Shown piece after piece: positions 27,410 through 32,725 of a DNA stretch of 32,725 bases. How positions within the stretch are numbered: the stretch's first letter is position 1; each line of letters begins with the position of its first letter. The translations under genes were made by a program, and so were the position numbers. The notes under the pieces are model-generated. The model was not told the DNA's origin, ran no database searches, and saw only the letters and a program-made list of their open reading frames with translations. Source of the stretch: a virus; IMG/VR virus record IMGVR_UViG_3300050821_001764, positions 1 to 32,725 of that record, one strand, 5' to 3'.

Positions 27410-28882
27410 ATGCCTAGGTTCGGATTCATCGGTCCTTCATATTCGGTCCAGTCTCGCTCGGTTGCCGATGAGGAGTGTATTAACCTCTTCGCTGAGACGA
27501 ATGAGTCAGGCGGCGCATTCGACCAAGCGCAGGCCTACGGTGGACGCGAATATGTCAACCTCAAGAGCTATTTCCGCACGCCGGGGCTCTCAGTATTCTC
27601 AGCACTGCCGCAGAGTCCAGTGCGCGGATCATTCTATGCGCTTGGGCGGCTGTTTGTAGTGGCCGGTGCGGGACTTTATGAGCTTTCAAGCTCTGGCGCG
27701 CAGACTTCCCGCGGTACAGTGGCGAATGACGGTAATCCGGTATCGATCGCGTTCAACAATATCCAACTGCTGATTGTCTCAGGAGGCCATGCCTACTGCT
27801 TCACGCTGGCGACAAACGCCTTACTTGATGTCACGGGCGATCTGGCAGGCATTCCGGTACAGGTCGACGAGTCGGACACATACTTCATCGTCGCATTTCA
27901 GAATTCGAACAAGTATCAAATGAGTCAGGTGCTTGACGGCACAACCTGGCCCGGCCAGCTGGTAAACGAAGTCTCAGTATTCCCCGACAACATAACTTCA
28001 ATCATCGTCAATCATCGGGAACTTTGGGTATGCGGGCAGAAGCGCTCACAGCCGTTTCAGGACACGGGCAGCACTGAGGTATTCGACCCGATTGCCGGCG
28101 CGCTGATCGAAACGGGGTCCGTGTCTACCTTTTCCGTCGCGCGGGTAGACAATTCAATCTTCTGGGTAGGCCAAGACGAGCGCGGTGCGGTTATTGCATG
28201 GCGCAGCAGTGGCTATACGCCCTCGCGGATCTCAACTCATGCGGTAGAAGTATGGCTCTCGAATCAGGCCAACGTCTCGCAGCTTGTCTCCTACAGCTAT
28301 CAGGATCGCGGACACCTGTTCTGGGTGCTGTATGTGCCCGGCGGCGACTGCTCTTGGGTCTATGACGTAACCGAGCAGCTCTGGCATAAGAGGCGCTCAT
28401 GGAATGCTGCGCTCGGCCAGTGGGGACCGCACTATAGCTGGAACCATGTATTTGCTTTCGGGATGCACTTGGTGGGCGATTGGAACTCAGGCAATCTCTA
28501 CCAGATGAACATGGAATTCCTTACGGACAATGGGACGAACATACGCCGGCTTCGGCGAGCGCCTACCGTGAGGAATGAAAAGAGGTGGATTTACCACACG
28601 CAGATGACGGTAGACTTTCAGGCCGGCACGGGCCCGCAGCCACCGCTACTAGATGGCAACAATGCACCTCGCCAACCACAGGCAATGCTTCGCTGGAGCA
28701 ACGATGGCGGCCAAACATGGTCGAACGAGCACTGGAGAGGGATGGGCTTCGCTGGGCAGTATGCTGCGCGTGTGTTCTGGATGCGACTAGGGCGCGCTCG
28801 CGACCGCGTCTATGAGCTAGTTATCGATGACCCGGTGGACGTTTCCATAGTCGACGCCTACTTGGAAACGGCCAATGGCTAA
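27410..28882 (+). CDS. Packaged DNA stabilization protein, P22 gp10-like
   Basis: 490 aa. FGFIGPSYSVQSRSVADEECINLFAETNESG and YFRTPGLSVFSALPQSPVRGSFYALGRLFVVAGAGLYEL are typical of the gp10 family, in which an N-terminal strand and repeated beta-propeller-like blades form the hub for tail spikes. It closes the portal channel together with gp4. Overlaps the next gene by 8 nt. Confidence 0.82.
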   Translation: MPRFGFIGPSYSVQSRSVADEECINLFAETNESGGAFDQAQAYGGREYVNLKSYFRTPGLSVFSALPQSPVRGSFYALGRLFVVAGAGLYELSSSGAQTSRGTVANDGNPVSIAFNNIQLLIVSGGHAYCFTLATNALLDVTGDLAGIPVQVDESDTYFIVAFQNSNKYQMSQVLDGTTWPGQLVNEVSVFPDNITSIIVNHRELWVCGQKRSQPFQDTGSTEVFDPIAGALIETGSVSTFSVARVDNSIFWVGQDERGAVIAWRSSGYTPSRISTHAVEVWLSNQANVSQLVSYSYQDRGHLFWVLYVPGGDCSWVYDVTEQLWHKRRSWNAALGQWGPHYSWNHVFAFGMHLVGDWNSGNLYQMNMEFLTDNGTNIRRLRRAPTVRNEKRWIYHTQMTVDFQAGTGPQPPLLDGNNAPRQPQAMLRWSNDGGQTWSNEHWRGMGFAGQYAARVFWMRLGRARDRVYELVIDDPVDVSIVDAYLETANG

Positions 28883-29486
28883 CAGCCTTCCGCCAGCACC
28901 AGCGCTAGTAATCTCGCGGTCTGCCATCGTCAACAAAGACGGCACAGCGTCATGGGAATTCGTCAAGATTCTGCAGAACTGGGCGCTGCAGATCAATAAC
29001 AGCCTCAATGCCATTGGTCAGTTCATAGGGACGCTTAGCCCAAACGCAACGGTAGGCGGACGATCGGGAACACTCGGCGCAGCGCTCCAGAACATAGACA
29101 GCACTGGAATACTTCAGCCGCCGGGAATCACTCCCGCTACTCCCTTGGCGCAAGGCGGGGTAATCCTGCCCACTGGGGCATCTAGCAATCTGCTAGGCAC
29201 GGCAGCCTTACAGCCGACGACGGCCTTTGATCCGGCGGGCGCTGCAGCCACAGCGCAGACTAATGCCGAGACATTTGCTACCGCTGCAGCCAATACGGCG
29301 CAGAGCAACGCCGAGACTTTCGCAAGCAATGCCTCGAACATCACCAGCGGCAATCTTGCGCTGGCTCAGTTGCCAACGGCTGGAATCACGCACACCTCAC
29401 CATTAGCCAAGCTGACGACGCTTGGCACCAATGGCTCTCTAACCTTCACGAATGGCATCTTGACTGCTGCGGTAGACCCGACATAA
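28875..29486 (+). CDS. Tail fibre/needle-like protein
   Basis: 203 aa. N-terminal ASWEFVKILQNWALQINNSLNAIGQFIGTL could attach to the tail hub. The central Ala/Gln repeats (AAATAQTNAETFATAAANTAQSNAETFASNAS, 15-residue spacing) suit a trimeric coiled coil, and the end is beta-like. Fits a short fibre or needle rather than an enzyme. It directly precedes the ACP gene. Confidence 0.6.
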   Translation: MANSLPPAPALVISRSAIVNKDGTASWEFVKILQNWALQINNSLNAIGQFIGTLSPNATVGGRSGTLGAALQNIDSTGILQPPGITPATPLAQGGVILPTGASSNLLGTAALQPTTAFDPAGAAATAQTNAETFATAAANTAQSNAETFASNASNITSGNLALAQLPTAGITHTSPLAKLTTLGTNGSLTFTNGILTAAVDPT

Positions 29487-29488
29487 TC

Positions 29489-29698
29489 ATGAGTGAAAAA
29501 ATATTCTCCATTATTGAGCGCGAAACTGATCAAAAATGCACAACGGAAACCACGCTGGAAGAATTAGGCGTCGATTCGCTTGAGCTTCTTGATCTGCTGA
29601 TGGCTATTGAGCAGGAAACGGGCCTCTCGGTGCCCGATAGCCGGCTTGCCGAACTGCACACGGTCGGCGACATCATCGGAATAGCGGCATCTGGGTGA
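29489..29698 (+). CDS. acpP-like: Acyl carrier protein
   Basis: 69 aa. LEELGVDSLELLDLLMAIEQETGLSVPDSRLAELHTVGDIIG is the full ACP helix pattern, with Ser30 in the DSL motif as the phosphopantetheine site. ACPs carry acyl groups as thioesters. The gene sits two bases after the tail fibre gene and overlaps the GNAT gene by GTGA, so it is expressed with virion genes. Its partner is likely the neighbouring acyltransferase; the acyl group and target are unknown. A host 4'-phosphopantetheinyl transferase would have to activate it. Confidence 0.85.
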   Translation: MSEKIFSIIERETDQKCTTETTLEELGVDSLELLDLLMAIEQETGLSVPDSRLAELHTVGDIIGIAASG

Positions 29699-30153
29699 TT
29701 ACTTTTCAAGTCGAGCGCTGGCGCGAATTTGCGCCTGACGGCTATCAGATATTCCCGCGTCACTGGGAAGACCTTAGCCTCGATAGAGACAAAATTAGCC
29801 TCTCCGTGGACGATCCAAAATATCAGCAACTAGATGATCTGGGCATCCTGCATATTGTCACTGCGCGCAAAGATGGGCGACTGATCGGCTATTTCCTCTC
29901 GTTCCTGATGATTCACCCGCATTACAAAGATGCAGGAATGATGGCGGTCGCGGACATTTACTACCTGCTGCCCGAGGCGCGCTCAGGCGGAACAGGCGTA
30001 AAGCTCTTTGCCGAGGTAGAGAAGTCATTGCGGGAGCGCGGCGTCATCAAGGCGTACCTATCCTGCAAGATTCACCAAGATCACACGGAATTGTTCACAC
30101 GTCTCGGCTGGAAGGCGACAGACATCATGTTCACGAAGCACCTAGGAAAATAA
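29695..30153 (+). CDS. Phage GNAT-family acyltransferase
   Basis: 152 aa from GTG 29695. WEDLSLDRDKISLSVDD, GILHIVTARKDGRLIGYFLSFL, then LLPEARSGGTGVKLFAEVEKSL with the R-x-G-x-G/A-like motif A (96-101), and a C-terminal LFTRLGWKATDIMFTKHLGK. It resembles the GNAT proteins often found among podophage structural genes. It transfers acyl groups from CoA or, as its coupled ACP gene suggests, from ACP. A substrate in the virion is possible. Confidence 0.8.
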   Translation: MITFQVERWREFAPDGYQIFPRHWEDLSLDRDKISLSVDDPKYQQLDDLGILHIVTARKDGRLIGYFLSFLMIHPHYKDAGMMAVADIYYLLPEARSGGTGVKLFAEVEKSLRERGVIKAYLSCKIHQDHTELFTRLGWKATDIMFTKHLGK

Positions 30154-30154
30154 T

Positions 30155-31453
30155 ATGGGCATAGGAACAGGCACTGCGGCGATTATTGGTGGAGTAGCGA
30201 GCGCTGGCGCTGGCATTGGCGGTGCAGCTATCTCGGCCAATGCGGCTGGCAATGCTGCGCAGGACCAGTCGCAGGCCGCTGAGCAGGCCGCACAGCTTCA
30301 ATATCAAGCATCACAGAATGCGCTTGGCTTTCAGGAGCAGGAATATAACCAGAATCAGCAGAACATGCAGCCCTGGTTGCAATCTGGCACGGGCGCGCTC
30401 ACCAACCTTGATTACCTCGCAGGCGTTTCGCCTCAATCGCCATCAGCATATGGCGCAGGCAGTCCGATTAATGTTAGCGGCACCAATCCTGCCAGCGTCG
30501 GTGCACCGGGTGTGGGCACTCCGCAAAACTATGGAGCTTCGCCTGCCGCTCAAGGCTCTGGCGCATTGCAAGGGATGCAGCTAACCAATCCTGGCGGATC
30601 ATCGCTTCCGCTGCCTTCTGGCAGCCCAGCGCTTACGCCTCAAGGCTACGGAGCTTCTCCCGCTGCTCAGGCGAGCGGTGCGGTGCGGCCCGCTGGTGCC
30701 AATCCTATCCCTACAGGCACCCCCGGAGGATCATCTCTCCCTCTTCCCGCGGGAAGCCCGGCACTCAGCGGCAATTATGGCGCATCACCGGCCGCACAGG
30801 CTGGCGGCGCTGCTCCTGCGGGTGCCGCGCCATCTGCTGGAGGATATGGCTCACTGCTGGCACCTTATCCGGGTCAATTCACCGCACCAACTGCGGCGCA
30901 AGCACTACAGGCTCCCGGCGAACAGGCCCAACTCCAGCTAGGCGAGCAAGCACTTCAGCAATCAGCGGCAGCTGGCGGGAATCTGCTTACCGGCGGCACA
31001 GCCGAAGCCCTCAACAATTACGCGCAGAATCTTGCGTCGACGAACTACCAGAACACCTATAACCAGGCCTACAACACATATTCCTCGAATTACAACCAGT
31101 ATGAGAACCAGCAGGCGAACGAGTACAACCGTTTAGCCTCTCTTGCGGGCGTAGGACAGACAGCAGCCAGCCAACTCGGAACCCTGGGACAAGGCGCATC
31201 GAATAACGTCTCGAGCAACCTATTGGGCACGGCGAGCGCGATCGGTGGCGATTACCAGAACGCCGCCGCCGCCAATGCCTCGGGCGTAGTCGGCGCGGCG
31301 AATGCTTATGGCGGAGCGATTGGCAATGCTGGAAACAGCATCTCGAACCTTGCGCTCCTGAGTCAGCTTGGCAATAACAGTGATCCCTGGGCCAACATTG
31401 ACCCGAATAGCCTCGGCAATTCCATCGCTGGAATGAATATAGGAAACAGCTAA
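30155..31453 (+). CDS. Gly/Ala/Asn-rich ejection-type virion protein
   Basis: 432 aa. The N-terminus IGTGTAAIIGGVASAGAGIGGAAISA is a hydrophobic glycine-zipper. LGFQEQEYNQNQQNMQPWLQSGTGALTNL is a common element of podophage internal virion proteins. The middle holds repeated GGSSLPLPSGSPAL and YGASPAAQ blocks, and the C-terminus is Asn/Tyr/Ala-rich. It fits a DNA-injection protein (P22 gp7/gp20-like place). Coupled by TAATG to the last gene. Confidence 0.65.
   Translation: MGIGTGTAAIIGGVASAGAGIGGAAISANAAGNAAQDQSQAAEQAAQLQYQASQNALGFQEQEYNQNQQNMQPWLQSGTGALTNLDYLAGVSPQSPSAYGAGSPINVSGTNPASVGAPGVGTPQNYGASPAAQGSGALQGMQLTNPGGSSLPLPSGSPALTPQGYGASPAAQASGAVRPAGANPIPTGTPGGSSLPLPAGSPALSGNYGASPAAQAGGAAPAGAAPSAGGYGSLLAPYPGQFTAPTAAQALQAPGEQAQLQLGEQALQQSAAAGGNLLTGGTAEALNNYAQNLASTNYQNTYNQAYNTYSSNYNQYENQQANEYNRLASLAGVGQTAASQLGTLGQGASNNVSSNLLGTASAIGGDYQNAAAANASGVVGAANAYGGAIGNAGNSISNLALLSQLGNNSDPWANIDPNSLGNSIAGMNIGNS
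30531..30820 (+). repeat. Imperfect coding repeats in ejection-type protein
   Basis: The peptide blocks YGASPAAQ (three copies) and PGGSSLPLPxGSPAL (two copies) alternate. The DNA copies near 30596-30637 and 30725-30768 differ at many synonymous sites, so the repeat is old and held by protein selection. Confidence 0.6.
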
Positions 31454-32725
31454 TGTCCAGTATCCCTCTTCCCGCCCTCGCAATCCAGCCTCCTCCGCAG
31501 CAGCCCAATCCCCTTGAGCAGTATGGGCGATTGCTCCAGCTCCGCAATATGCAGCAGGATCAGCCCTTGCAGCAGCAGCTTCTTCAGCAGCAGGTTCAGG
31601 AGGGCCAGCAGAATATCGCTGCCCGCCAAGCACTGAATCAAGCCTATTCTGGCGCTATTAGCAAGGACGAGAACGGCAATCCGACGATTGATGCCAATAA
31701 GCTAGCTCAGGGCTTGGCAAATGGCCCCGCTGCATACCAGACGCCTGCGGTGATGAAGGGGATTACTGACTTTCAGAAGAGTAGGCTGGATCTTCAGACC
31801 TCAGCCACCGACCTGCAGCAGAAGACTGCGGACCTTATCGGGAATGCGGCCGCAACGATCAAAGCAGCGAACTACGACGCTCCGCTGGCGCACAGCCTAT
31901 TGGATTCTCTGCCACCATCGCCGCAGCTAAACAATATACGCCAGCAAATCGACAATCCGCAGGCGCTGAAACAGTTGGTTGACTCGGCAATCATGAATTC
32001 TCCCAAGCAGCGCGAACTTGGGGCGCAGGAGCAGACCGCAGGAGCTCGCCAACTCACCGCGCAGACCGAGCAGGACAAGCTTAAGGCGCAGATGAACCCG
32101 CAAAGCTCGCTCTACGCTCCGTCTCCTGCATCGGTGGCGCTCGGAACAGCTCCCGGTGCCGCGCAGATTCAGGCTAATGAGGTGAAGCAGGCAGCCGTGA
32201 AGGCCGGCGCGGAAGAAGGCGCCCGTCTGCCCGGAGAATATGCGCTGAATGCGCAAAGGCAAGCCTTGTCACAGGGTGATCCTAATGCAGCAGGTCAGTT
32301 ATTGGTCAACGGAGATGCAACGCTGTCGGAATTGAAGGCTCGCGGCGCGACACCGGAATTCATCCAGCAGACGTTGAATGCAGCGCATAAGCTGAGCGGC
32401 GGACAATACAATGCTCAGGCGGCAGACTCTCAATTCCAGGTTGCCAAGTCGCCCGCCAACGTTGCGTTCTTTGGCTCTGCTAAGTCGCTGACAGACAAGG
32501 GCGGGACATTAGACCAGTTGTCGAATGCAGCAAAAAACATCCCCGGCGGCCTTATTCCCGCATTCAATAGCATTGCCGATTGGGAAAAGGCTGCTAGTGG
32601 CAGCGGACCAATCGCAAAATATGCCTCACTCGCTCTTGGTGTGGCTGACGACTATTCGAAGGTGATGGGCGGCGGTCAGGGAAGCGACACATCCCGGCAA
32701 CAGGCGCTACAGCTTGTCGGCGCGA
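31453..32725 (+). CDS. Second ejection-type virion protein (3' partial)
   Basis: About 424 residues, open at the right edge. It starts at ATG 31453 overlapping the previous stop. The N-terminus PLPALAIQPPPQQPNPLEQYGRLLQLRNMQQDQPLQQQLLQQQ is Gln/Pro-rich, followed by long helical, charged and Ala-rich stretches (RQLTAQTEQDKLKAQM, VKQAAVKAGAEEGARL). It is likely an internal DNA-ejection protein by position and composition; no enzymatic motif is visible in the part shown. Confidence 0.65.
   Translation, partial: MSSIPLPALAIQPPPQQPNPLEQYGRLLQLRNMQQDQPLQQQLLQQQVQEGQQNIAARQALNQAYSGAISKDENGNPTIDANKLAQGLANGPAAYQTPAVMKGITDFQKSRLDLQTSATDLQQKTADLIGNAAATIKAANYDAPLAHSLLDSLPPSPQLNNIRQQIDNPQALKQLVDSAIMNSPKQRELGAQEQTAGARQLTAQTEQDKLKAQMNPQSSLYAPSPASVALGTAPGAAQIQANEVKQAAVKAGAEEGARLPGEYALNAQRQALSQGDPNAAGQLLVNGDATLSELKARGATPEFIQQTLNAAHKLSGGQYNAQAADSQFQVAKSPANVAFFGSAKSLTDKGGTLDQLSNAAKNIPGGLIPAFNSIADWEKAASGSGPIAKYASLALGVADDYSKVMGGGQGSDTSRQQALQLVGA

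Follow-up and report, generated by a model that had tools for sequence, protein, structure and literature searches.

The lipopeptide maturases of the goadvionin GdvG type and the selidamide GNAT maturases place long acyl groups onto ribosomal peptides, and GdvG moves the acyl group from an acyl carrier protein (ACP) to the peptide N-terminus. As generally described, these maturases belong to peptide natural-product pathways, whereas the locus considered here lies in a phage virion operon. N-acyl amino acids are made by dedicated ACP and GNAT-fold enzymes, and the GNAT loading domains of polyketide synthases act with an ACP. For proteins, a precedent is HlyC, an acyl-ACP-dependent acyltransferase with a GNAT fold; HlyC/RtxC enzymes take the acyl group from acyl-ACP and acylate a membrane-inserting protein from their own operon, and HlyC-type enzymes lack CoA-binding elements (PMC8339906).

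In phages, GNAT genes beside internal virion protein genes are already known, as are the ACP and GNAT families themselves. The position of the Cobavirus GNAT (SIO1, pc40) was noticed earlier and compared with T7 gp13, and only a gp13-like role in morphogenesis was suggested (PMC6775973). In podovirus loci of this kind (SIO1/Cobavirus pc40, Zobellviridae, Pseudomonas phage PfAn1, phrog_1249), the GNAT adjoins internal virion or ejection genes, as it does in our locus. The Zobellviridae and PfAn1 enzymes are sequence relatives of the GNAT described here, and in sequenced phages (Zobellviridae, PfAn1 and a Manatee Spring genome) the homologues lie mostly between the head-closure/nozzle gene and the gene of the first internal virion protein. 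The ACP partner distinguishes our locus from them; none is annotated in those sequenced-phage loci examined. T7 gp13 (PF11090), encoded just before gp14, shares with our GNAT the place between nozzle/closure and first internal virion protein; no sequence relation between the two was detected (separate Pfam families; hhalign probability 6%; no PF11090 match for our GNAT). The partnership of an ACP with a virion-operon GNAT, which gives the acyltransferase its own dedicated carrier, appears to be new: in the open literature searched, no report of a phage ACP coupled to a GNAT or of acylated ejection proteins was found, which is not proof of absence.

The ACP and GNAT genes

The DNA analysed (the window), 32,725 bases long, spans an entire IMG/VR virus record, which is probably part of a longer genome. 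It comes from an uncultured, short-tailed, P22-like podovirus with an integrase and also encodes, by Pfam and PHROG matches, a P22-type portal and coat protein, a terminase and the head-closure protein Hc3. The genes around the ACP are as follows.

27410..28882, plus strand: head-closure Hc3 protein (phrog_578, E 1.5e-93)
28875..29486, plus strand: fibre-like structural protein, 203 aa, 5' of the ACP gene (weak PHROG match alone)
29489..29698, plus strand: acyl carrier protein, 69 aa, ATG start, DSL phosphopantetheine site at Ser30 (PF00550, E 7.1e-12)
29695..30153, plus strand: GNAT-fold acyltransferase, 152 aa, GTG start (PF00583, E 1.9e-6; phrog_1249, 'acetyltransferase')
30155..31453, plus strand: first ejection protein, 432 aa, candidate substrate (phrog_598, 'DNA ejection', E 5.7e-14)
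31453..32724, plus strand: second internal virion/ejection-type protein, open at the record end (open reading frame; N-terminus kept in relatives)

A similar fibre-like gene occupies the matching place in relatives of the window, and the second ejection-type protein (31453..32724) has no Pfam, PHROG or NCBIfam match. Two scans of GTDB genomes, made with the host in view, gave no relatives. The preliminary description had the coordinates of the pair, the DSL motif and Ser30 right (PF00550, D29-S30-L31), and the GTGA overlap that it reported is exact, as given by the open reading frames at 29489-29698 and 29695-30153. It had also placed the pair between fibre and ejection genes, in agreement with the fibre-like gene upstream (28875-29486, weak PHROG match) and the phrog_598 gene that starts at 30155 downstream. 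Its proposal that the pair is made together with virion proteins holds as far as operon position goes.

The window ACP, which carries D29-S30-L31, scores 45.8 bits against PF00550 (curated cut-off 20.8), and its AlphaFold2 model (pLDDT 92.3) adopts a four-helix fold whose best Foldseek matches are ACPs (TM 0.87). All 20 ACPs in the alignment keep D-S-L, although their identity to the window protein is just 23-57%. Compared with free-standing bacterial ACPs of the AcpP type (TIGR00517), the fold, the DSL motif and the acidic helix II are alike; on the other hand, the window ACP is shorter, reaches 40 bits against the equivalog cut-off of 70, and adjoins a GNAT gene, with no fatty-acid genes recognised nearby. 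Since the scanned window proteins include no phosphopantetheinyl transferase, the ACP would depend on one from the host. Six residues are missing after helix II in the ACPs of contigs L096, L119, L120, L121, L125, L130, L135 and L139, with DSL intact, and standard-carrier behaviour is thus not required of every ACP. Mini-ACPs shortened in this way (L096, L119 and others) are unusual among free-standing ACPs.

The window GNAT matches PF00583 above the curated cut-off, and its AlphaFold2 model (pLDDT 95.6) has the canonical GNAT fold, with 382 Foldseek matches in the PDB at E <= 0.001, the top ones being GNATs. The N-terminal acetyltransferase RimI is among these matches as one of many similar GNAT folds, which limits its weight for N-terminal acylation. 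The pyrophosphate loop R96-S-G-G99-T-G101 fits R/Q-x-x-G-x-G/A, and R96 and G101 are invariant across 62 sequences. At position 143, all 18 ACP-linked GNATs that extend this far have D and the 43 others all have E; Y89 and S123 likewise mark the ACP-linked enzymes, and no basic residues specific to the ACP clade were seen. A GNAT-like fold is common to the window enzyme and HlyC/RtxC. In contrast to HlyC/RtxC, the window GNAT has a CoA-type loop, its neighbouring substrate candidate contains no lysine, and its carrier is encoded in the cassette rather than borrowed from the host. In Pfam, it has no match to the RtxC family at E <= 0.1; it lies outside that family and may, by analogy, work like RtxC enzymes.

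Linkage and exchange of the cassette

An alignment-based scan of IMG/VR, from which the best 80 of 476 relatives were kept, was extended by scans that used the ACP alignment, the alignment of ACP-linked GNATs, and Hc3; alignments were needed, since scans with the single ACP or GNAT protein gave no matches. A profile built from the first eight ACPs placed an ACP directly 5' of the GNAT in 21 contigs, the window and the fusion-bearing L132 among them, and nine further contigs with ACP and GNAT came from the Hc3-anchored scan. In total, 30 contigs (the window and 29 other viral contigs) have an ACP gene that adjoins or overlaps the GNAT start, a pairing far beyond chance, and recurrence on this scale rules out a local accident or assembly artefact as its source. 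The ACP is always 5' of the GNAT, and in most contigs its stop overlaps the GNAT start, most commonly by 4 nt. In L132:4435-5022, a single open frame of 195 aa joins a truncated ACP (the DSLE helix-II half) to the GNAT; this may be a genuine fusion or the product of a deletion in the assembly.

Among 139 classified GNAT loci, 21 have an ACP, 54 have an Asp/Asn beta-hydroxylase-like gene (PF05118 in 6/6 tested) and none has both. This hydroxylase-type gene lies directly 5' of the GNAT and often overlaps its start; L020:5417-6456, L138, L140, L015, L044, L003 (PfAn1), L008 (DC33) and others have it. It represents a second kind of GNAT-coupled modification-type gene ahead of ejection genes. Limnohabitans phage DC33 (PQ492659, L008) is recorded as Inoviridae, yet the record is 39 kb long and its GNAT/hydroxylase region is tailed-phage-like, so the phage is likely misclassified.

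All 19 ACP-linked sequences fall into one clade (SH-aLRT 99) when 74 dereplicated GNATs are placed in a quick maximum-likelihood tree; this corresponds to one change and no losses. Hc3 provided an anchor tree independent of both ACP and GNAT. In close relatives anchored by Hc3, the slot holds either ACP and GNAT or a different GNAT (GNAT2) without an ACP, and the cassette label switches nine times or more on well supported (starred) branches of the Hc3 tree. The ACP tracks the GNAT type in 7/7 phylogenetically independent pairs on starred branches (sign test p 0.016); these counts come from a single collection and quick trees, with several contigs sharing metagenomes and some near-identical. 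This repeated switching, in which the ACP is never left behind, implies that the cassette is exchanged as one piece. In L093, L098, L170:6112-7013 and others, the gene after GNAT2 encodes a protein with matches to short tail fibre PHROGs, and this alternative cassette has been swapped repeatedly with ACP and GNAT in one slot.

That the two genes are gained and lost together, that they are fused once and that the serine never varies argues for an ACP that works as the carrier of this GNAT. From these comparative data, the two genes are very probably a real and functionally coupled pair. The two-part system of the preliminary description is thus upheld by linkage, stop/start overlap, inheritance in one clade, an in-frame fusion and repeated joint replacement; the survey of related phages that it called for showed the ACP next to the GNAT in 30 contigs, and the unlinking in relatives that it named as contrary evidence was not seen.

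The proposed acceptor and its alternatives

Whether these phages acylate one of their own virion proteins via acyl-ACP is, in our judgement, about evenly balanced. In this proposal, ACP and GNAT would form a phage acyl-transfer cassette produced alongside the late virion genes. Holo-ACP would arise from the phage ACP through a host phosphopantetheinyl transferase and be charged by host fatty-acid enzymes or an acyl-ACP synthetase; the GNAT, tuned to the phage ACP, would then move the acyl group to a virion-protein amine during assembly. The likeliest substrate would be the first ejection protein, encoded directly 3' of the GNAT, and the acyl group would go onto the N-terminal amine exposed once Met is removed (Gly in the window, Gly or Ser in relatives). 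Capped in this way with a lipid-like or short acyl group, the protein may assemble or enter the membrane more readily; its class would be that of T7 gp14, an outer-membrane pore former. T7 gp14, which occupies the matching position in T7, forms a constitutively open channel in lipid bilayers (PMC8954989). The direction of transfer, from acyl-ACP to acceptor, is suggested by acyl-ACP-using GNAT-fold enzymes such as HlyC (PMC8339906), and the acceptor is suggested by synteny; holo-ACP formation, acyl-ACP as the donor, a protein substrate, its N-terminus and the membrane role are likewise steps that we infer.

Phage biology has yet to explain how capsid-stored ejection proteins form membrane channels, and a conserved phage ACP and acyltransferase beside ejection genes suggests a covalent modification step. 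If this is true, protein acylation would join virion maturation, and it would explain a GNAT kept in this slot by many podoviruses, a gene for which present annotations give a generic acetyltransferase or a metabolic function. Mass spectrometry of virions makes the idea directly testable.

In nearly every locus the gene directly 3' of the GNAT, at a median gap of 1-9 nt, encodes a Gly/Ala-rich ejection-type protein. This near-universal order makes ejection proteins the best placed of the three targets named in the preliminary description (fibre proteins, ejection proteins, host surface), and the first ejection protein the best candidate. In the window, it is rich in Ala, Gly and Gln, starts MGIGTG (N-terminus GIGTGTAAIIGG) and contains no lysine and just two arginines in 432 aa. 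The median lysine content in the ACP group is 0.5%, four of the proteins, including that of the window, having none. HlyC-type lysine acylation of the window's first ejection protein is ruled out by this lack of lysine, which leaves the N-terminal amine as the likely site if the protein is the substrate; this N-terminus is a possible acylation site, though hardly a probable one. Residue 2 is S or G in 17/17 ACP-clade cases scored (one start uncertain) and V in most hydroxylase-clade ejection proteins. The matching ejection protein family also accompanies the ACP-less GNAT2 and begins MS there too, so residue 2 is not decisive as a marker of the ACP-linked GNAT and the pattern is weak evidence.

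Synteny does not decide between the fibre and the two ejection proteins as the substrate. It is not very likely, in our view, that the same chemistry acts instead on the fibre-like protein (28875-29486) or on the second ejection protein (from 31453). Both genes flank the cassette in relatives, and the second ejection protein, which starts MSSIPLPALA in the window, has a strongly conserved N-terminus in relatives (M-S/A/G-x-IPLPAL) and a normal lysine content of about 6%. However, the adjacency of the GNAT and the first ejection gene reaches distant phages whose second gene begins differently.

Some starts of the first ejection gene are unusual. Shortly past the GNAT stop, the conserved GIGTG-like start is preceded by ACG in L157, L158 and L136 and by ATA in L014, at the very place where relatives have ATG; these are possible non-standard start codons. 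In L050, L104, L141, L022, L138 and L140, a short charged leader ending in Cys precedes the Ala-rich stretch, at the place where relatives have the initiator Met, and is possibly processed.

It is unlikely that the pair acylates a host protein, amino acid or envelope component and lies in the late operon incidentally. Such a pair would resemble N-acyl amino acid or quorum-signal synthases, and the dedicated ACP and GNAT-fold enzymes that make N-acyl amino acids speak for it. So does Rac of phiKMV-like phages, a phage GNAT that acts on the host (PMC7552054). However, no profile of the LuxI-type autoinducer synthase family matched the cassette proteins, the ACP-clade cassette lies consistently between virion fibre/closure genes and the ejection gene, and the alternative cassettes in this slot likewise carry a GNAT.

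The retained R-x-x-G-x-G loop of CoA type counts against acyl-ACP as the donor, as does the lack of basic residues specific to the ACP clade. Together with the shortened helix II of several ACPs and the ACP-less relatives in the slot, which must use CoA or host ACP, the retained loop favours a GNAT that uses acetyl-CoA or another acyl-CoA on a virion protein, the ACP being a structural or regulatory subunit. We regard this reading as quite unlikely, as the DSL serine, needless for a purely structural subunit, is invariant in 20 very divergent ACPs. The reverse direction, in which the GNAT would put an acyl group on the ACP or decarboxylate one there and so feed host lipid synthesis, finds parallels in the GNAT loading domains of polyketide synthases and in the GNAT-related E. 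coli protein YiiD, linked to malonyl-ACP decarboxylation (PMC8666670). It is very improbable, since the cassette has no downstream product-using enzyme, scanning the window proteins brought up no lipid gene, and the virion-operon position is left unexplained.

Returning to acylation of a virion protein via acyl-ACP, a bolder form of this proposal, which we consider rather doubtful, is that podoviruses carry, immediately 5' of the ejection genes, exchangeable virion-modification cassettes (ACP and GNAT, Asp/Asn hydroxylase and GNAT, or a different GNAT), the ACP version of which would fatty-acylate the pore-forming ejection protein for insertion into the host membrane and so yield a lipidated DNA-injection machine.

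Two further genes were observed. At L122:5983-6210, an ACP gene occurs without a GNAT, among apparent head-tail or tail genes of a long-tailed phage. At the left end of the window record (8-2881), a 957-aa open reading frame with a TTG start and no Pfam match resembles a large secreted or structural protein.
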